Shown: positions 5,725-30,898, counted from the first letter of the stretch. The stretch is 46,496 nucleotides of DNA from Campylobacterota bacterium (GCA_013151055.1 JAADIZ010000143.1:1-46496), one strand, 5' to 3'. The notes: generated from the sequence alone by a model not told the origin. Program-made: numbers and translations.

Positions 5725-8700
5725 TTAAAATCCTTGTATCATAATATCAACTACCCCCGACACTTTTGCATTTGAAGTGTTGTAAAGGTCTATATGAAAA
5801 CTGTTTAAAGTTTTATTTGTTATATCTGGAGCTATATTTGCCCCACCGTTTATCACTGTAGCTCTCACTGTTGCCTCCTTGTAAAACTGTTTGCCGTAAT
5901 CTGCAAAAACTATATCGCTTCCTGTCGTGCCAATTGAAAAATTTGTAATATTCAATTTTGTGTCAAGCACATCCAAGATATAATGTAACTCGTTTAGAGT
6001 TAATTTTGTGTGTATGTCAAAATTAAATGAAACTTTTATCTTTAGATATCTAAAAGTTTCATTTACGACTTGCATATACTCTGTATAATTTGTATAGGTT
6101 ATATTGTCCTCGCTATAGCTTATATAGATTTTAGGAGTAATTACAGCTGTTATATCTATATCCGTATCAAGAGGGTATGATGTATCTACTCTGTTTTTTA
6201 TCTGCAAATCAGTAATATTTTGCAAAATAGCATCATATATAGTGTTTATTCTTATACCTGTATCTCCGACTAAAAGAGTATCTATCGCATTTGTCTCATA
6301 CTCACAAAAAAGCGGATTATCGCCTGTGTAGTTTGATATATATACATCTGTTTTTGTCGGTAGGTCTGTGTCAGCAAGCCCTGCTGTGTTTATAAGAGTG
6401 TTGCCTACGGGGGTAAAGTTTACAAAAGTCCCGTCAAAAATATCTACTATATCAAGTACGGCATTCAAATGTTCATTAACACCTGTTATTGAAATGATTG
6501 CTTTTGTTGCATTTTTACTATAGACATTTGATGTATCTATCGCTTTTATCATATACTCATATGTCCCGTTCATTGCAGCTGGGGTGTCAAAAGAGTTGTT
6601 AGATATATCTGTAGCTATAATTTTCCCACTATCCCAGGCTATACCTCTTCGTATCTCATAGCCTTTTTTATCAACATCTAATATATTGTCCCAGCTAAAA
6701 TGCAGTTTATCGCTTTGCTGGAGGACTTTAAAATTTTGCACATCTTGTGGAGGATATTTTTTACCGAGAAAAGTGTATAAAAAAGCTTTTGCAGTGCTTA
6801 TACTTCCATAGCTTCCAAAATTTGTTTTGCAAATAGCTTTAAATACATATTGTTTGTTTTCTAAAAGTCCTAGCGATAGATATGAATATTTATCTGTAGC
6901 TAAATCTTTTACTATTTCAACATAACTGTTTCCATCATCTTTAGATACATAAATTGCATATTTCGTAGATATAGTTTTTGAATCTGATATCAATTTAAAA
7001 TCCAAAAATGGAATTATAGTTCCATCAACTCTTTTTTCAAGATGTTCATCAAAAATTATATTTGTAACTTTTGGATTAACTACTAGTTCGCTTTTTGATG
7101 GCGATGGATAAACATCGGGTACATCGGATACTACTTTTTCAGAGTATTCCACCGCTTTTATGCTTCTTGTGAAGTCATTTTTTCGAGTTATAGAGGTTAT
7201 TCTGAAAAGATTTATGCCAAAAGGTTTTTCTATTAAAGAGTAAATATCATATTTTGCTGGGGGAGTTGTAAAAATTCCATTTATTACTATATTTGTAGTC
7301 GTTTGAGTGCCTGTAAAAGTTATGTCAAAAGTTTCAAAACTGTTATCATTAAGCCGTACAGTCAGCTCATACGAGCTTGTAGCATACAGAGTTACTTCTT
7401 TATCAAGAATTACCGTGTTTGTTGTTGCACTTACAAGTCGTCCACTCTCTCCCCAAGCAGGCACATCGTGGCTTATGCCTATAACATCACCAACTTCACT
7501 GTCAAGTGCGTCTAAACCTACATCAAATTCAGCTGTTCGCCTTGTGTTTCTGTTGTTATTTAAAAAGTACCTGCCCACCCTATATGCCTGTGTTGCACTT
7601 GTTATACCCATTTGGTTTATCGTAGATTTTTTGACCTGTAAATCTGTGTTAAACCACTCTGGCACTACTACAGACAAGGTATCGTTTGTATAATCTTTAT
7701 CTTTATTTGTAAATTGTATCTCTACTTCATTTGCCAAATCTTCTTGAGATATGTAAGAGATTTTTAAAGAACTTTTGACAATATTTCCCATGTTAAATAT
7801 TTGTGTCATTGTAGTTAGTTTGTCAACTACAACAGAGTATTTTGTACCTCTTATGATGGGGCTTGCTCTTCCTACAGTTGCCACTTTTACAAGAGCGTCC
7901 CAAATGTTTCCTTCAAAATCAAAAACGCCATTAAATTTATATCTAGTCTCACTACTATTTATAATTTGTGCAGGAACTAGCTCATCACACCAATTTGCCC
8001 AATCTTGCACAGCATTAAAATCAACCCTGTCATATGCCAAGCCATAGCCATACAAAGGATTTGTGAGTATATCCCAGAATACCCAAGCAGGGTTATCAAG
8101 GCTCTTAAATCCTTGAGAGATTCCACTCTCATCAAAAACTTCTATGTCTTTTCGCTCAACATCAGTTAAAACAGTAACCTCGCCACTCAATTGTCCTGTT
8201 GCTTTTATCCTCAATCCCAAAAGTGCCACAGTAGGATATGCCAGGTCATCCAAAATAATCTCACCCATACCAGCCCAATGGCAAGTAGTTTGTTCTCTTG
8301 GGTCTGTAGATACTGCGGTTACTCTTGTTATTTGTATCTCATATTGATTTGGAGATAAATTTGGAATTCTTATCTCTTTGCTAAACGAGGTAGTTTGTGC
8401 TGCCCCATAAGTGTAATCTCCGAAATAAATCCAAGATGTTGCACCTTTAGCTCTGTATTCAACTTTTAACTCCACATTCCTTGTATCAAGACCGCCTTTG
8501 TCGTTTTGATAGTATAATCCGTTTGGAAATTGGAAAAATATTCTTATCGCTTGGTTTGCATTGCCTATTGTTTCTCTCACAACTGGGATACTTTCAAGCG
8601 TTACATTAAAATTATTTGGAGTTTCTATATCCGCGAAATACGGCATAACTTCTTGTGCCATTCCGCCAACTCTATAAAAGTATTCTACATCTTCGTAATC

Positions 8701-22054: not shown

Positions 22055-22851
22055 GCTACTCTCATCTTTTTGGTGATTATAATCTCTCCAAGTGCTAACA
22101 TCTTTGTAAACCTCTCTTTGCTTATAGTGTATTTGATATTGTCATCTGTGATTACTGTACTTTTTTCTTGATCGTAATATCCAACTATCAGCTTGCCATC
22201 TTTTTTTATTTTGATTTGGGGATTGAGATAGTTTAGATATGCTTGTTGCTTCATAAAGTTTGTGAGATTGTATGTTTTACCATTTATCCTTGGGTCATTT
22301 GCATGTAGCATGTATGCGTAAGCCATATCGTTATAAGATATATGCAAATGATTTTTTATATATTCCTGATATGCTAACTCTTTATTGCCTGTAAACTTAC
22401 AAGAGAATCTACATCTTAGATACATATCTTCAAAATCTTTGTCAAAAAAATTAACTTGGTCTTTATTATTATATATATTAAATACTTTGTTCGGTTGGTG
22501 TTCGGTGCCTTCCTTTAATTCCCCTAAATATTGGGTTTTGTGGGTGTTCGTTTCGTTCGGTTGCTGTTCGGCTTGACTTTGAGCGTAGTTATAGTGTTGT
22601 CTGTTTTTTATACTCCAGTGTGCCAAAAACAAATCTATCTCTTTGTCAAATTCATTTATCCAACTATGTGCTGTAGAAGAACTTATTTCCCACGAGGTTG
22701 CATAAAATCTAATACTATTGTGGTCACCATGCTCCATATCGTCCCAGTACTCCATAAATGCACGAGCTTTTTTCCTGCCTCTTACACCTCTTTTCATCTT
22801 TAGTTGCTGTATATAATCTGTTGGGTATGTTTTATAATTCAATCTCATCAA
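22051..22851 (-). CDS. Putative phage replication initiator or helicase loader
   Basis: A 266-residue protein next to the DnaB-type helicase gene. The N-terminus is basic (RGVRGRKKARAF), followed by a helix-turn-helix-like stretch at about 45-70 (FYATSWEISSSTAHSWINEFDKEI). A polar linker rich in Gln and Asn (90-130) joins it to a C-terminal domain. No Walker motif is present, so it is not a DnaC-type ATPase. HTH-linker-helicase-contact is the layout of lambda O-like and DnaD-like initiators. Function is inferred from place. Confidence 0.55.
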   Translation of the reverse strand: MMRLNYKTYPTDYIQQLKMKRGVRGRKKARAFMEYWDDMEHGDHNSIRFYATSWEISSSTAHSWINEFDKEIDLFLAHWSIKNRQHYNYAQSQAEQQPNETNTHKTQYLGELKEGTEHQPNKVFNIYNNKDQVNFFDKDFEDMYLRCRFSCKFTGNKELAYQEYIKNHLHISYNDMAYAYMLHANDPRINGKTYNLTNFMKQQAYLNYLNPQIKIKKDGKLIVGYYDQEKSTVITDDNIKYTISKERFTKMLALGEIIITKKMRVA

Positions 22852-24188
22852 ATCACACCGCCCATGTTTAGAACTTTGCCTTCATACTCGTACACTTGGA
22901 CGGGTACATCTGTAAAGCAAGTATGAGGACCATCGAAGAAGCATCTAGCACAACCACTTCTGCCGTCTCTGTTTTTTAAAACGATTATCTCTGCTGGGTT
23001 TATGGGCTGTTCTGGTATGCTTGGGTCGTTTCTGTTGTAGTAGCTCTCTCTGTGGAGGGCTAAGACTATCTCTGCGTCTTCTTCTACTGCTCCACTCTCT
23101 CTTATATTACTTAGAAGTGGGCGTTTATTTTGTTGAGTTTCATTTGCTCTATTTAGTTGAGAAAGCAAGAAGACAGCTACTCCGTACTCTTTTGCTGTTT
23201 TTTTGATTAGTTTTGTTATCTCACTTACCTCTTGTGGGATATTTTTGCCATCTTTTTTGATGTATCTTAGGTGGTCTATGATCCAGTACTTTACATGTGG
23301 GTTTTTTCTAAAAACTATGCTTGCTTTTGCTACAAGCTGGTGGATGCTGATGTAGCTTTCATCGTGGATGATGATGTTTTTGCTATATCTTAATTCTTTT
23401 AGAGATTTTGCAAATCTTGCAGGATTTTTCATCAATCCTCTTTTTATGTCACTCAAGCTTTCATCTGCTCTTTGGGCGTGCAGTCGGCGGATTATCTGCG
23501 TGTCGCTCATCTCTAGGCTGTCAAAAAGGACACCATCGCCGTTTTTATCGGCATAATTTGTTATAGTGGTAGCAAAGCTAGTCTTTCCCATGCTAGGTCT
23601 TGCCGCTACTACTACCAAATCACCTGGACTAAAAGCACCGACTATGTTGTCAAGTGAGCCAATCCCACTTTTATATCCAACATAATCTTTATATTCGCGT
23701 GCTTCTTTGAATTCTTTTTCAAATTCGTCAACTATCTTTTTTATATTTTTCGACTTTTTAGAGATGGATTTGTCAGCGATTTCATTTATAGTTTTGCTCA
23801 TAAAGCCTAGTATATCGTACACCTCTTCACTTGCACCTAGCTTGTTCTTGACCTCGCTCATCATCTCGACTGTCTCTCGTCTTTGGCTTTTATCTCTCAA
23901 TTCTTCTATATATCCATCTAGGTTTGGGAGTGGATTTGTCGAGGTTATCTCAAGCATAGCATTTTCATCCCAACGGTTTTGCTTTTGCAGCTCCATCGCG
24001 ATGAACTCTTCATCTATGGGTTTTTCTGCTTTTTCGAGTTCAACCATCGTCTCATATATATAGCGGTGAGCTGGCAGATAGAAGTCATCGGCGGAAAGTT
24101 TGTGCAAATTTAGCAAGAAAATATTTGGATTGAAGAAAAAAGAGGACAAAACTGCTCTTTCTATGTTTATATTGTGCAAATTATTCAT
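22848..24188 (-). CDS. Replicative DNA helicase, DnaB family
   Basis: A 446-residue hexameric helicase, full length for DnaB. The N-terminal helical domain (1-105) is followed by the RecA-like ATPase: Walker A ARPSMGKTS with Lys202-Thr203, Walker B at YWIIDHL, and the sensor-like LLSQLNRA. It has no intein. It should unwind phage DNA at the phage origin with host primase. It overlaps genes on both sides, within the leftward replication block under PL. Confidence 0.93.
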   Translation of the reverse strand: MNNLHNINIERAVLSSFFFNPNIFLLNLHKLSADDFYLPAHRYIYETMVELEKAEKPIDEEFIAMELQKQNRWDENAMLEITSTNPLPNLDGYIEELRDKSQRRETVEMMSEVKNKLGASEEVYDILGFMSKTINEIADKSISKKSKNIKKIVDEFEKEFKEAREYKDYVGYKSGIGSLDNIVGAFSPGDLVVVAARPSMGKTSFATTITNYADKNGDGVLFDSLEMSDTQIIRRLHAQRADESLSDIKRGLMKNPARFAKSLKELRYSKNIIIHDESYISIHQLVAKASIVFRKNPHVKYWIIDHLRYIKKDGKNIPQEVSEITKLIKKTAKEYGVAVFLLSQLNRANETQQNKRPLLSNIRESGAVEEDAEIVLALHRESYYNRNDPSIPEQPINPAEIIVLKNRDGRSGCARCFFDGPHTCFTDVPVQVYEYEGKVLNMGGVI

Positions 24189-24535: not shown

Positions 24536-25042
24536 TCAACCGATAAATTCATCTAGTTTATTTTCTATCGCTCTTAGTTGTTTTCGCATATCCATGGCAA
24601 TTCTCTTTATCCTTTTTGCCTCTTTTTCGTCTATCACCCCGTCTTCTAGGTCAGCTACTACTTCATCAGCTAGAAGTCCTAACATTCCTTGTATCTCAAG
24701 TACTCCTATCTGCATAGATACTTCTACGGCTTGGATAGTTTCATCTGCTTTTGGCGTTGGCTTGATAAAAAAGCCAAATTTGCTGACAAGAGCGTCTAGG
24801 ATGCTCTTTTGCTCCTCTTTGTCCATCTCGCCTAGCATGATGAGCAGTTCGTCAAGTTTTATGAATTTTGTAGTTTCGTTTGAGGAGAGTCTTTTGTAAA
24901 GCTGTATGTTTTTGGTTTTTCCGCATAGTCCTAGGACTTCCGCCATGTAGCTCACGCCATTGATATCGTTCTTTTTTCCAAATGCCGTTATATTCTCTTT
25001 GATGATATCGTAGAGAAACGGATCCTTGTAAATGTTGTGCAT
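24536..25042 (-). CDS. CII-like phage regulatory protein (first gene of the PL operon)
   Basis: A 168-residue protein from ATG 25042, chosen because AAAGGG lies seven bases upstream; an in-frame upstream start at 25078 falls inside the leader hairpin. The N-terminal half resembles the CII/CP76 family of phage regulators: a divergent helix-turn-helix (about 30-65) ending in a TKFIKLDELLIML segment. The C-terminal half (105-166) is a helical hairpin with many charges. It would activate or license replication or lysogeny genes. The family match is by eye and moderate. Confidence 0.5.
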   Translation of the reverse strand: MHNIYKDPFLYDIIKENITAFGKKNDINGVSYMAEVLGLCGKTKNIQLYKRLSSNETTKFIKLDELLIMLGEMDKEEQKSILDALVSKFGFFIKPTPKADETIQAVEVSMQIGVLEIQGMLGLLADEVVADLEDGVIDEKEAKRIKRIAMDMRKQLRAIENKLDEFIG

Positions 25043-25055
25043 ATCCAACCCTTTG

Positions 25056-25115
25056 TGATACTTCAAGACAACCTGCAAAAGGGTTGAAAAATTTGCAGGC
25101 TGACTTGAAGTATCA
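25056..25115 (-). promoter_or_regulatory. Large hairpin in the PL leader RNA
   Basis: Two nested inverted repeats share one centre (25085.5). The outer arms are 12 bp (TGATACTTCAAG at 25056-25067, CTTGAAGTATCA at 25104-25115); after a 4/4 internal loop the inner arms are 8 bp (CCTGCAAA at 25072-25079, TTTGCAGG at 25092-25099), with a 12-base loop. The structure ends two bases before the AAAGGG of the CII-like gene, so it can affect its translation or transcript stability. Confidence 0.75.
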
Positions 25116-25148: not shown

Positions 25149-25190
25149 ATTATAGACAGTTTTGTCTTTTTTGTCAAGACATAATGTCTT
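25149..25190 (-). promoter_or_regulatory. PL promoter with repressor operator
   Basis: On the minus strand TTGACA (25177-25172), 17 bases, TATAAT (25154-25149): a full sigma-70 consensus. A perfect operator, AAGACAT-A-ATGTCTT (25176-25190), covers the -35. A second dyad, AGACA-4-TGTCT (25154-25167), fills the spacer and has one extra base at its centre. The predicted start of RNA is near 25142, about 100 bases before the CII-like gene. Confidence 0.85.
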
Positions 25191-25288
25191 TTATTCTAAT
25201 ACAAAATGTTATTTTTTTGAGAAAAAAGCCTGTTTATTGTTTGTTTAATGATTATTGAAGTAAAATAAAAAGAAAAGGGGTTGCAGAT

Positions 25289-25345
25289 ATGGAGTTTGAA
25301 AATCAGATTAAAAAGTTATCGGACAGAATAGAAATAAGTAAGTAA
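25289..25345 (+). CDS. 18-residue ORF before the DUF4760-like gene
   Basis: An ATG nine bases after AAAAGGGG opens a charged 18-residue frame (MEFENQIKKLSDRIEISK), stopping one base before the next ATG. The sequence resembles the very start of restriction-enzyme N-domain proteins (HSDR_N type), so it may be a remnant left by gene replacement, or a leader peptide coupled to the gene after it. A weak promoter, TTGTTT-N18-TAAAAT (25237-25266), lies upstream. Confidence 0.4.
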   Translation: MEFENQIKKLSDRIEISK

Positions 25346-25346
25346 A

Positions 25347-25967
25347 ATGAATGATAAAATTGAATGCTCTAAGCACGTTATTAAATATATTACTAATCAT
25401 ATACATCTTCAAAGTATATTTTATATGGCAGCAATGATTTCGGTTGTCATTGTTGCATCACAGTTTAGATATACTACCAAATGGAATAAAAAACAATTGA
25501 CTATAAAAATGTTATATGAACTAAAAGATAGTTTAAAACTTCATTTTGACTTCTTGCATAAAACTTTTAAATATAGAGATTTAACAGAACCTATTAGTTG
25601 TAAAACTATACATAAAGCAATGGGTGAATTTTTAGAAGATGAGGCAAGAACTGAAGAAGATTGTAAAGCAAGTGAAATAGTAAATATTTCTGGTAGAAAA
25701 TTTGTTTATCATAGCGAGGATAACGAAGATGGAAAAAATATAAAGCTTAAGCTAGGACATTTTTTAAATGATCTTGAAGCATTTGCAACAGCTGTAAATG
25801 ATGGAACTTTTGACGAGAAACAGTCTAAAAGATTGATGAGAGGCATAATCGTAAGAGCTTATAAATATTTTAAACCATATGTCATACATCTAAGAGGTGA
25901 CCACAAAGAGGTCAGCCAACTTGCGTATAAAGAGTTGTTTATGTTGGGTGAAAAATGGAGTGAATAG
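25347..25967 (+). CDS. DUF4760-like membrane protein (accessory)
   Basis: A 206-residue protein with one membrane segment (about 23-39), then a cytoplasmic helical domain. Features such as FLNDLEAFATAVNDGTFDEKQSKRLMRG are like DUF4760, a family of unknown function often found in mobile elements. The DNA is richer in A+T than the neighbouring replication genes, and the gene runs against the PL operon from its own promoter region, so it is likely expressed in lysogens and was probably acquired. A role in superinfection exclusion is only a guess. Confidence 0.6.
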   Translation: MNDKIECSKHVIKYITNHIHLQSIFYMAAMISVVIVASQFRYTTKWNKKQLTIKMLYELKDSLKLHFDFLHKTFKYRDLTEPISCKTIHKAMGEFLEDEARTEEDCKASEIVNISGRKFVYHSEDNEDGKNIKLKLGHFLNDLEAFATAVNDGTFDEKQSKRLMRGIIVRAYKYFKPYVIHLRGDHKEVSQLAYKELFMLGEKWSE

Positions 25968-26038
25968 ATTATACTTAAGCTTTAATTTAGTTAAATTAGC
26001 TTAAAATATGGAAGATGGATACATAAAAAAGGAGTTGA

Positions 26039-26104
26039 ATGATGTACTTATACACAGACAGTAAAAACTTAGGCAGGATAATTGAAGAGTGGCCATCGTG
26101 CTAA
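26039..26104 (+). CDS. 21-residue ORF in a stand-alone short transcription unit
   Basis: A strong AAAGGAG lies four bases before tandem ATG codons (26039 and 26042); the frame of 21 residues is polar, ending in EEWPSC. A hairpin-prone A+T-rich sequence with TAAAAT (about 26002) lies upstream and a strong terminator follows 17 bases after the stop. The unit could be a tiny gene or a small RNA whose ORF is incidental. No family recognised. Confidence 0.4.
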   Translation: MMYLYTDSKNLGRIIEEWPSC

Positions 26105-26120
26105 TCCACTAAACTATAAA

Positions 26121-26158
26121 AAACCTCAGACTGGTTAAAATCGGTCTGAGGTTTTTTT
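26121..26158 (+). terminator. Strong bidirectional intrinsic terminator
   Basis: Stem AAACCTCAGAC (26121-26131) with GTCTGAGGTTT (26144-26154), 11 perfect pairs, 12-base loop, then a T run on the plus strand. On the minus strand the stem is also followed by T residues, so it can end transcripts from both sides: the DUF4760 unit and the convergent Abi gene. Confidence 0.92.
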
Positions 26159-26398
26159 GTTTTAAAACTCCGAAAATACAAAAGATATATACAACTACAG
26201 AGAAAAAATCATAAAAAGTTTAGAGATATTTGAAGTGGAAAAAGGATTGATAAATTAAAGTGTAAAATATAAAATGTGTTTTGACCAGCTTCTCAGCTGG
26301 TCAAAACTGGTAATATCAGAAATGCTAAAAAACAAATGTTCAATTACCGTACTTAGACTGTGAGTATACCATAAAATTTATAAAATAGATATAATACT
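26159..26398. other. Non-coding stretch with a second hairpin and a possible gene remnant
   Basis: 240 bases without a supported gene. A perfect 12-bp hairpin (GTTTTGACCAGC at 26278-26289, GCTGGTCAAAAC at 26296-26307) lies about 90 bases beyond the Abi stop and may end or protect that transcript. An open frame lacking a start ends at 26259 with a lysine/glutamate-rich sequence (EKIIKSLEIFEVEKGLIN), possibly the tail of a lost gene. Confidence 0.5.
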
Positions 26399-27526
26399 TT
26401 ACTTACTTATTTTATAAAAGTGTATCACTGTTTTTATAATCATCATAAATGTAAGATTTATAGTTTTATTTTCTACATAATAGCTTTTGTTCCTTTGCAC
26501 TCTTTTGCTTAAAAGAAGTAAATCTTTATACCTATGGTATTTTATTTTTCTACTATTGCTTATGTAAGTCAAGGCGAGCAAGGAGCCAATAAAATTGTGG
26601 ATAAATCTGTTTGTCAACAGGTCTTGAATATGAATTTTTTTGATTTTTTTATCAAAACAGTTCAAATATAAATAATCAACAACTTCTCTTGTAGGCCGCT
26701 TTAGTTGTCCTACATTAAGATTATTAATTAAACAACTATTATGAGATACTGAATTGCGAAGTTTTATAATACACGATGACAAAGATCTAATTTTTCTGTA
26801 ATTAGTGCTCCTTCTTGTATGCTTTTTGTAAAAAAAATCACATAATTTAAATAATTCTCCCAGAGTGATATCTTCAGCAATTTGCCAAATTGATTTATTT
26901 TGTAACTGTTCAGCTCTTTCAGGCTGCATAGGGTATTGTTCAAGTCCTGTATCGTGTAATGTAAATTCATTGATAATTTTGTATCCATCTTCTGGTGACA
27001 AATCAAAATCTCTTAACAGTTGTGTTTTTAATGCATGTTCTATGCATGAACATATCTTGAGAGCTTCATTTGATATATGCATATCAATAACTGATAAATC
27101 CACTAAATATGCAAAATCTAAATCTTTATACTTTTCATCTTTTTTTTCAAAGTTTTTTCTATATGCAGTAAGCTTATAGTAAAATGTATTGTTTGTTAAA
27201 AAATCTTTTGCCGATGTTTCATCCATTTCTATAAATCTAACACCTTTTCTCTTTAGTTTTTCCACTTGTTCCGATATACTCAACTTGGGTTTTAATATAG
27301 GGTTAAAGAGGATAAGGTATTTTCGCTCAAACACTTTCGTACTTAAACGAAAATCAAGAGCCAGCACTTCTAATGTTTTTTCTATTTCTCTTATGATATC
27401 ATTTGGATATTTACGATCCAATGCTTTTTTTTGTATTCTACTTATCTGTTCACTGCTTATTTTCTCAAAAACTTTAGAAAGATTTGGAGTATTGCTTTCT
27501 GAGATGTCTAAAAAAAGATGCTGCAC
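26399..27526 (-). CDS. Abi_2-family abortive infection protein (HEPN domain)
   Basis: A 375-residue protein of the AbiD/AbiF (Abi_2) family. From about residue 82 it shows SISEQVEKLKRKGV, FYYKLTAYRKNF, the IEHALKTQLL helix and the HEPN RNase signature Arg257-x4-His262 in LRNSVSH. The first 80 residues are extra compared with the usual 300-residue form and may sense the trigger. Such proteins stop phage growth by killing or arresting the infected cell. It starts with GTG behind AAGGA and has its own TATAAT, so it should be made in the lysogen and defend it against other phages. Confidence 0.85.
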   Translation of the reverse strand: MQHLFLDISESNTPNLSKVFEKISSEQISRIQKKALDRKYPNDIIREIEKTLEVLALDFRLSTKVFERKYLILFNPILKPKLSISEQVEKLKRKGVRFIEMDETSAKDFLTNNTFYYKLTAYRKNFEKKDEKYKDLDFAYLVDLSVIDMHISNEALKICSCIEHALKTQLLRDFDLSPEDGYKIINEFTLHDTGLEQYPMQPERAEQLQNKSIWQIAEDITLGELFKLCDFFYKKHTRRSTNYRKIRSLSSCIIKLRNSVSHNSCLINNLNVGQLKRPTREVVDYLYLNCFDKKIKKIHIQDLLTNRFIHNFIGSLLALTYISNSRKIKYHRYKDLLLLSKRVQRNKSYYVENKTINLTFMMIIKTVIHFYKISK

Positions 27527-27557
27527 AAAAGTCCTTTTATTATTTTAATCTTCTTGT

Positions 27558-27563
27558 ATTATA
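27558..27563 (-). promoter_or_regulatory. -10 element of the abi gene
   Basis: TATAAT on the minus strand, 32 bases before the GTG start, in the 65-base gap after the repressor gene. No clear -35. No operator copy is seen, so expression should not depend on the repressor. Confidence 0.5.
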
Positions 27564-27591
27564 TAACAATTTAAAATTTTAGAAAAGTCGC

Positions 27592-28170
27592 CTATACTAT
27601 ACTCCTTAACACTTTACCAAATATCCTAAAAGTGCTTTGGTCGTCTAGGGATGTGGTGTAGCTTTCGTAGTCTTTGTTTGTGCTTATGATGCGAAGATGG
27701 CCCTCTTCGTTTATCTGTAGGAGTTTTACCATGAGGGTGTTTCTGAAGTTTAGCACATACAACCCCTCTCCTGCATAGTCTTTGATGGTGCTATCGAAAA
27801 CGACCCAGCTGTCAGAGAAGAGCAGAGGAATCATACTGTAACCATCCACCTGCATAGCAAAGAGAGACTTTGGCGGAGTAGTTTTAAATATAGCCAAATC
27901 CAAAATCAACTCACCTATCTTTTCCACACTATCTATCGACTCTACATTTACACCACCGCCTGCTCCAACTTTTGGAGATAGTTTTGTAACTTTAACAATA
28001 TTTTGTGCGTTTTGTCTTAAATCTTTCCATATTCTAGCTGGCACACCTCTTTGCTTCCACTTTGCAACAGTATTTTCATTTTCTCCTAGCTTTGATGCAA
28101 CCTCTCTGGGAGTCTCTACTTTTAGGACTTGGCAAAGGGCTTCTAAACTATCTTCTTTATTTATTTTCAT
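27592..28170 (-). CDS. Prophage repressor, CI/LexA-like S24 peptidase
   Basis: A 192-residue lysogeny repressor. The N-terminal domain has a CI-type helix-turn-helix (about 20-45: PREVASKLGENENTVAKWKQRG). The C-terminal S24 domain has Ser112 (DGYSMIP) and Lys149 (TLMVKLL), with the self-cleavage bond at Ala70-Gly71 in VGAGGG. RecA-stimulated cleavage after DNA damage would release PL and PR. It starts at ATG 28170 behind GAGGG, next to three operators, so it probably controls itself. Confidence 0.93.
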   Translation of the reverse strand: MKINKEDSLEALCQVLKVETPREVASKLGENENTVAKWKQRGVPARIWKDLRQNAQNIVKVTKLSPKVGAGGGVNVESIDSVEKIGELILDLAIFKTTPPKSLFAMQVDGYSMIPLLFSDSWVVFDSTIKDYAGEGLYVLNFRNTLMVKLLQINEEGHLRIISTNKDYESYTTSLDDQSTFRIFGKVLRSIV

Positions 28171-28186
28171 AGTTATCCCTCAAAAA

Positions 28187-28244
28187 AAGACATTAGGTCT
28201 TGACATAAAAGACATAATGTGCTAGAATTTCGACATTAGGTCAT
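28187..28244 (+). promoter_or_regulatory. PR promoter with three repressor operators
   Basis: On the plus strand TTGACA (28200-28205), 17 bases, TAGAAT (28223-28228). Three copies of the 15-bp operator are seen: AAGACATTAGGTCTT (28187-28201, over the -35), AAGACATAATGTGCT (28209-28223, in the spacer) and TCGACATTAGGTCAT (28230-28244, at the RNA start). Their centres are 22 and 21 bp apart, two helical turns, which allows cooperative binding on one face. The repressor gene diverges from here, so its own promoter overlaps. Confidence 0.88.
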
Positions 28245-28269
28245 ATTTGCATTATCATAATGCAAATAT
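28243..28269. promoter_or_regulatory. Perfect 27-bp palindrome next to the PR operators
   Basis: Arms ATATTTGCATTAT (28243-28255) and ATAATGCAAATAT (28257-28269) around one C. The sequence is different from the repressor operator, so it may be the site of a second regulator such as the Cro-like protein, or a hairpin at the 5' end of the PR transcript. Confidence 0.85.
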
Positions 28270-28315: not shown

Positions 28316-28558
28316 TTGAAATTTAGCCAAAATGTCTCATTTTTGAAAAACATCGAGTTTGGATTGTGGGAGAGTAACAAATCTTTAGAAGATTTGTGCA
28401 GCAATTGTGACGCCAAACTCTCCAGCGTAAAGACCAGACTATACATGATAAACCTATACAAAAAACTACCAACTCCACTAGATAAAAAATTAGACAGCTA
28501 TCTAAAAGAGAACTGCACAGGATACAAAGAATGGGCAAAAGAGATGATATGTGGATGA
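28316..28558 (+). CDS. Cro-like small DNA-binding protein (first PR gene)
   Basis: An 80-residue protein starting at TTG 28316, seven bases after AAAGGA; the nearby ATG at 28311 leads to a stop after two codons. Residues 24-42 (LEDLCSNCDAKLSSVKTRL) match the spacing of a helix-turn-helix, and the place, divergent from the repressor, is that of Cro. No named family is recognised; the HTH call is by pattern. Confidence 0.6.
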   Translation: MKFSQNVSFLKNIEFGLWESNKSLEDLCSNCDAKLSSVKTRLYMINLYKKLPTPLDKKLDSYLKENCTGYKEWAKEMICG

Positions 28559-29774: not shown

Positions 29775-29808
29775 GAGTAGATAGTTTAAATTTTAAAAGG
29801 AGGACAAT

Positions 29809-30139: not shown

Positions 30140-30898
30140 ATGTTTGAAAAATTGATAAAATTGGTACAGAGACCATCAGAGCAGCTAAATGGTAGAGTTC
30201 TAGTTCATAAGGACTATGAAATTAAAGCGGATACTAACTATAGACCACCTCTAGCTAGAAATGTGATTGCACAAAGCATACTAGATAAGTATGATTTTAT
30301 AGAGTTCGTAAATGAGTACAAAGAAGAACAAACCAAACTCTTTTATAATGAAAACCAAATCAAAGCGGTATTTAACTATCCACTTGTGGATGAAGCGGAC
30401 TATGGTGACTCTTTTTGTGTTATGGGGCTTAGATATACAAATGATTTTAGTAGGTTTTCGTCAATGTTAGAGAAAAAAATGAGCCAAAAAGAGTTCATAA
30501 TGATGTTAAAAACTTTGGAGCCTTACATAGTAGGTTTTGACGGTAAAGAAATAGAAAATATGGACATAATAGAGATTGCCGAAAATCTACAGGCTACTAA
30601 AAACATAAACAGCATACAGAGAAACACGCAACAAAAGTTCACACTAGATGTGGAGATTAGCACAGGGCATAGTGAGATGACTATACCTAGATACATATCG
30701 TTTGAGTTCCCTATCTTTAAAAATGATTTGCAACTTAAGACCAGATTTGAAGTTGAGTTGTTTCTGGGTGGAAGTGATGATGGGTTTGAAGCTGTGCTTA
30801 TGTGCTACAAGCTAGAGCAACAAAAAGAGGAGGCACTAAAGGAACTAACCAAAGAGGTGCAAAACGGGCTAGATGGAGTAGATAGTTTTATGAGTTAA
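30140..30898 (+). CDS. DUF2303 (YfdQ-like) phage protein
   Basis: A 252-residue protein matching DUF2303 in layout: the early DFIEFVNEY, AVFNYPL, a Tyr/Phe-rich W-less middle with KKMSQKEFIMMLKTLEPYI, and C-terminal beta strands with ISFEFPIFKND and RFEVELFLG. The family is common in early regions of tailed phages and may act in DNA metabolism, but its function is not known. It is the largest gene of the PR operon. Confidence 0.7.
   Translation: MFEKLIKLVQRPSEQLNGRVLVHKDYEIKADTNYRPPLARNVIAQSILDKYDFIEFVNEYKEEQTKLFYNENQIKAVFNYPLVDEADYGDSFCVMGLRYTNDFSRFSSMLEKKMSQKEFIMMLKTLEPYIVGFDGKEIENMDIIEIAENLQATKNINSIQRNTQQKFTLDVEISTGHSEMTIPRYISFEFPIFKNDLQLKTRFEVELFLGGSDDGFEAVLMCYKLEQQKEEALKELTKEVQNGLDGVDSFMS

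Follow-up and report, generated by a model that had tools for sequence, protein, structure and literature searches.

The window analysed here, a stretch of 46,496 nucleotides that makes up the whole of contig C178 in a 2.1-Mb Campylobacterota genome of 209 contigs, carries the prophage of a lambda-like siphovirus, and its early region raises the question of whether two divergent promoters 3.0 kb apart, PL and PR, are governed by one repressor through one shared operator. This is the arrangement familiar from lambda, in which a single type of operator serves two early promoters 2-3 kb apart, the promoter next to cI having three of the sites, and in which accessory genes of the exclusion type lie between the promoters and immunity specificity is exchanged as a module. 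The original prediction, which was made from the sequence alone, had proposed a switch of this kind for the window.

The gene map provides the setting. Leftward of PL lie, in order, a CII-like regulator (24536-25042, minus strand), a winged-HTH gene, a DnaB-like replicative helicase (22848-24188, minus strand, by family matches), terminase, the major head protein, the tape measure and a J-like tail fibre. The first of these is assigned to the CII type by matches to PF06892 and phrog_101, and an activating role is predicted for it. Rightward of PR, a gene for a helical protein of 80 amino acids (28316-28558, plus strand) is followed by DUF2303-type genes, including one at 30140-30898 (plus strand, phrog_210), toward the integrase. 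The repressor gene (27592-28170, minus strand) does indeed adjoin PR, with 16 bp separating its start from the nearest of the PR sites, and the accessory genes that had been placed between the promoters are an Abi_2 gene (26399-27526, minus strand), 3' of the repressor in a rex-like position, and, between Abi_2 and PL on the opposite strand, a DUF4760 gene (25347-25967, plus strand, by family match). PADLOC called no defence system among these accessory genes. The repressor has an S24 fold (PF00717, E = 6e-15) with the catalytic residues Ser112 and Lys149 and the AG motif, so that self-cleavage is predicted, while its N-terminal DNA-binding domain is recognized as a helix-turn-helix through weak family matches only. 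In one respect the proposal had to be corrected: PL and PR are functionally reversed in comparison with lambda, where the repressor faces the cro/cII/replication arm. In the window it faces the recombination/integrase arm, and the CII, DnaB, terminase, head and tail genes all belong to PL.

Both promoters have the positions, the TTGACA, the 17-base spacer and the TATAAT-like -10 element that had been claimed for them. PL (25149-25177, minus strand), which drives the CII-like/DnaB/late arm, is an exact TTGACA-17-TATAAT, and PR (28200-28228, plus strand), which drives the recombination/integrase arm, reads TTGACA-17-TAGAAT, one mismatch from consensus. The TTGACA had been taken as unusual for the phylum and as something on which the phage may rely to compete for polymerase. 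The former is in keeping with Campylobacter jejuni, whose promoters mostly lack a -35 box and use an extended -10 and periodic A/T instead (PMC3656092). An advantage in competing for polymerase is conceivable, but the TTGACA does not set this phage apart, since a strong TTGACA-like/TATAAT promoter occupies the same place in 32 non-redundant related repressor loci, and a pattern count of the host genome yields 11 exact matches to TTGACA-17-TATAAT, PL included, where about two would be expected from base composition by our own estimate. TTGACA is a habit common to related phages, not peculiar to this one.

The candidate operator, AAGACAT-N-ATGTCTT, had been described as perfect at PL and as present three times at PR. 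Only the PL copy of the dyad is perfect (AAGACATAATGTCTT, 25176-25190), and it overlaps the -35. The three copies at PR, namely AAGACATTAGGTCTT (28187-28201, overlapping the -35), AAGACATAATGTGCT (28209-28223, in the spacer) and TCGACATTAGGTCAT (28230-28244, over the predicted RNA start), carry one, two and four mismatches, respectively, over the 14 specified bases, and one mismatch each within the ten-base core GACATNATGTC. Their centres, at 28194, 28216 and 28237, are spaced by the 22 and 21 bp first reported. Whether such a motif is equally common in unrelated DNA has a divided answer. Taken as a loose 15-mer with up to three mismatches, it occurs four times across the window against 4.9 expected, with no excess over chance; the signal is in the tight core and its clustering. 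Counted as a pattern, the core with at most one mismatch is found at 57 places in the 2.13-Mb genome, six of them in the window, four of which fall on the two promoters. Because core matches elsewhere in the genome come at about one per 41 kb, four such sites in about 200 bp of promoter sequence have a probability of about 2e-11. With a position weight matrix built from these same sites, the four also take the top four scores in the window, the PL site ranking best. The next-best score, at 29801, was rejected as a fifth operator, as the site is a ribosome-binding site and start codon that is unchanged in the related phage L037 (see below). A motif-free comparison of the window with the 130 bp preceding the repressor gene also picked out PL as the match (30 nt, 93%, E = 4e-8); the two promoters hold the shared site in register, some 8.5 bp upstream of the centre of the -35, and the matching stretch includes TTGACA and the A/T that flanks it. 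The same candidate operator is found at both early promoters.

When we looked, as had been suggested, for the same 15-bp dyad beside the repressors of related prophages, the exact motif was found only in L034, an identical contig, because the DNA-binding half of the repressor differs among relatives. We therefore turned to the co-replacement of operators and repressor half. L037 (IMGVR_UViG_3300026512_000040) is syntenic with the window and mostly 80-98% identical to it outside the swapped blocks, with shared proteins, the repressor excluded, at 81-93%. Along this region, identity stands at 0.98 in the PL leader, drops to 0.57 and 0.54 in the PL operator block, recovers to 0.81 in DUF4760 and 0.86 in repressor codons 61-192, falls again to 0.52 in codons 1-60 and 0.45 in the PR operator block, and returns to 0.93 in the PR leader. 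Both operator blocks and the N-terminal half of the repressor have therefore been replaced together in L037, with DUF4760 and the other half of the repressor retained between them; L037 also differs from the window in having no Abi_2 gene. In place of the dyad, its PL and PR, 2.3 kb apart, share a different 45-nt sequence (87%), which includes promoter sequence and is longer than any other inverted repeat in that region. In this comparison, a single clean swap pair, operator sequence tracks the DNA-binding half of the repressor. The triple swap strongly supports a link between the putative PL operator, the putative PR operator and repressor specificity, and it is because of this swap and of the paired operators found in other phages (see below) that we read the locus as having one operator at both promoters, recognized by the S24 repressor.

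We weighed this reading against three others. Something other than the S24 repressor, either a host protein or the 80-residue product of the PR arm acting as Cro, might read the dyad; the latter is small and helical and sits in the Cro position. However, the dyad swaps with the N-terminal half of the repressor, whereas the 80-residue gene stays 80% identical in L037 with the same N-terminus, and the rest of the host genome shows scattered core matches but no enrichment of the motif beyond these, leaving this reading very unlikely. In lambda, cro travels with the immunity module. Because the gene in the window was not swapped along with the operators, its product is probably not a Cro that reads them; its best match in a structural search was weak (E = 0.7), and no Cro matching the operators was identified in the window. 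An exchanged specificity unit can, then, leave out the first lytic gene.

A reading in which PL and PR are alike only as strong promoters, or by recent copying, with no common regulator, would accommodate the TTGACA and flanking A/T within the shared sequence, as well as the promoter included in the 45 nt of L037. It has little to say about a dyad that lies outside the hexamers and recurs at the second and third PR sites, about the improbable density of the four sites, about the change of both L037 promoters to a new common sequence, or about the unrelated common sequences of L088, L100 and L045, and we find it barely credible. Finally, PR alone might be the switch, with a weak site at PL and a PL arm mainly under the control of its leader hairpin or the CII-like protein, which would suit the single clear dyad at PL and the very stable hairpin directly before the CII-like gene, a structure that recurs in the Nitratiruptor phage NrS-1. 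Yet the PL site matches best among the four, overlaps the -35 and was exchanged with repressor specificity in L037, all of which makes this unlikely. We consider it highly probable, instead, that the S24 repressor binds one dyad at both early promoters and shuts both arms in a lambda-type switch, and that the locus serves a temperate, lambda-like siphovirus as its immunity region.

Paired operators are not confined to the window and L037. Clear pairing was seen in three other lambda-like phages: L088 (41 nt, 83%, 1.2 kb apart, E = 3e-6), L100 (42 nt, 90%, 2.1 kb apart, E = 5e-12) and L045, in which the exact 19-mer TGTACATAATTTATTTACA stands at both ends, 2.4 kb apart, with further copies as well. 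These paired sequences differ in each phage and are unrelated to that of the window. Pairing was weak in L115 (2.7 kb), L116 (2.6 kb) and NrS-1, with part of the PL/PR similarity in L115 and L116, as in L037, being promoter and not operator, and with only a 13-mer common to the two regions of NrS-1. No shared operator was found at the two ends of L117, nor in L044, where the repressor is replaced by an HTH protein and the PR region has no match elsewhere. L045 and L100, both viral contigs, have true lambda polarity, unlike the window, with a small HTH/Cro-like gene of the DnaB arm diverging from their repressor, while the repressor is on the other side in the window, L037, L088, L115, L116 and NrS-1; paired operators thus occur with the repressor on either side. 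As in the window, an Abi_2 gene lies between the operators of L100 (E = 3e-14). The slot between the repressor and the distal promoter is variable, holding Abi_2 in the window and L100 (5818-6975) and an unassigned 152-residue protein in L037 (6631-7089). NrS-1 (AB746912) has the same map as the window (recombination arm, CI-like, accessory genes, CII-like, primase, terminase), together with a TTGACA promoter and a long hairpin before CII, but its DNA-binding domain is different. A paper on this phage makes no mention of operators or promoters (PMC9723563).

A second kind of partner was seen when the PR region of 45 non-redundant repressor loci was compared with the +100 to +300 stretch of the locus's own repressor gene. 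Ten of the 45 reached a score of at least 13, against 0.43 expected when PR was paired with the wrong gene and none in the control stretch from +300 to +500; the comparison is post hoc, because the cut-off and the stretch were set after the first matches had been seen, and its controls are internal. Copies are clearest between +139 and +240, close to the linker that joins the two domains, and the match is 18/18 nt in L081, L092 and Campylobacter phage CAM-P21. Copies of a locus's own PR operator in its repressor gene were noted in L076, L047, L049, L058, L059 and L062, and further in L065, L067, L081, L092 and L095. Nine of the loci with an intragenic site could be typed as Mu-like, having, on the PR side, homologues of the transposase that CAM-P21 encodes. 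Lambda-like loci had no intragenic operator or, in L037, a 12-mer only, and none was found in the window's own repressor gene. The putative intragenic copies are therefore mostly a feature of Mu-like Campylobacterota phages, CAM-P21 included, which suggests that phages profit from a partner operator regardless of their architecture. In the literature library searched, no paper was found that deals with operators in Campylobacterota prophages or with phage operators inside genes.

The leaders bear on how the repressor gene itself might be controlled. Of 23 leaders, nine carry a TATAAT-like -10 on the repressor strand, 17-19 nt further on than the -10 of PR, and this suggests that many relatives have PR and the repressor promoter face-to-face; L009, L046, L057, L058, L059, L066, L067 and L092 are among such leaders. 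No clear repressor promoter was found in the window, and because the only candidate there is a weak TATGAT (28259-28254, minus strand), a face-to-face promoter is no more than inferred for it. This candidate lies within a perfect 27-bp palindrome with 12-bp arms in the PR leader (28243-28269), which is kept when the operators swap and may either serve a separate lytic regulator as its site or form an RNA hairpin. The PR leader of L053, a Nitratiruptor locus, contains a 41-nt stretch with further copies, 80% identical, at 6265-6305 and 7313-7353, possibly as a repeated leader element. In the PL leader, the hairpin directly 5' of the CII-like gene (25056-25115, minus strand; z = -7.3) is almost unchanged in sequence in L037. 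In the window, the loop sequence CAACCCUUU and the bases AAAGGGUUG that precede the CII-like start codon are complementary. Pre-CII hairpins with z of -6 to -7 were recorded in the window, in L037 (8385-8482) and in L094 (8314-8410), and the hairpin of NrS-1 is similar as a structure with unrelated sequence. An Rfam search of the leader hairpin gave no credible match; the hairpin might control CII at the RNA level or act in antitermination.

In a lysogen, then, the S24 repressor would sit on the dyad at the -35 of both PL and PR and would also occupy the two further sites across the PR spacer and start, silencing the PL arm (CII-like, DnaB, late) and the PR arm (recombination/integrase) alike. 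As in lambda, looping may bring together repressor bound at the two clusters, and the operator spacings of 3.0 kb in the window and 2.3 kb in L037 are compatible with this; since PL has only one clear site, looping is a guess. The PR sites may also limit the repressor's own transcription. RecA-stimulated self-cleavage, for which the S24 residues are present, would release the repressor. No LexA above the curated cut-off was found in the host genome, the one weak match being to the C-terminal part (G000 C54:11836-12099), and an E. coli-like SOS regulon is for that reason not evident in this host.

Taken together, these comparisons strongly suggest that the locus works like the lambda switch, with wiring of its own. 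It resembles lambda in its paired operator type, its three sites beside the repressor, its S24 repressor, the accessory genes in between and its modular specificity, and it differs, polarity aside, in the single clear site at the distal promoter, in an operator of unrelated sequence and in that no operator-matching Cro was found. For S24 temperate phages of Campylobacterota more widely, we would tentatively propose a wiring rule, whose parts seem to us rather doubtful when taken jointly. PR operators would often have a partner, either at the second early promoter (lambda-like) or in the repressor gene at about +140 to +240 (Mu-like); repressor transcription would start inside the PR leader, face-to-face with PR, so that repressor bound at the PR and partner sites could limit its own gene by roadblock or looping; and the N-terminal half of the repressor would be exchanged with its operators but without the first lytic gene. 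For the prophages of Campylobacterota, the locus provides a probable lambda-type switch with a predicted operator and, in L037, a natural heteroimmune partner.
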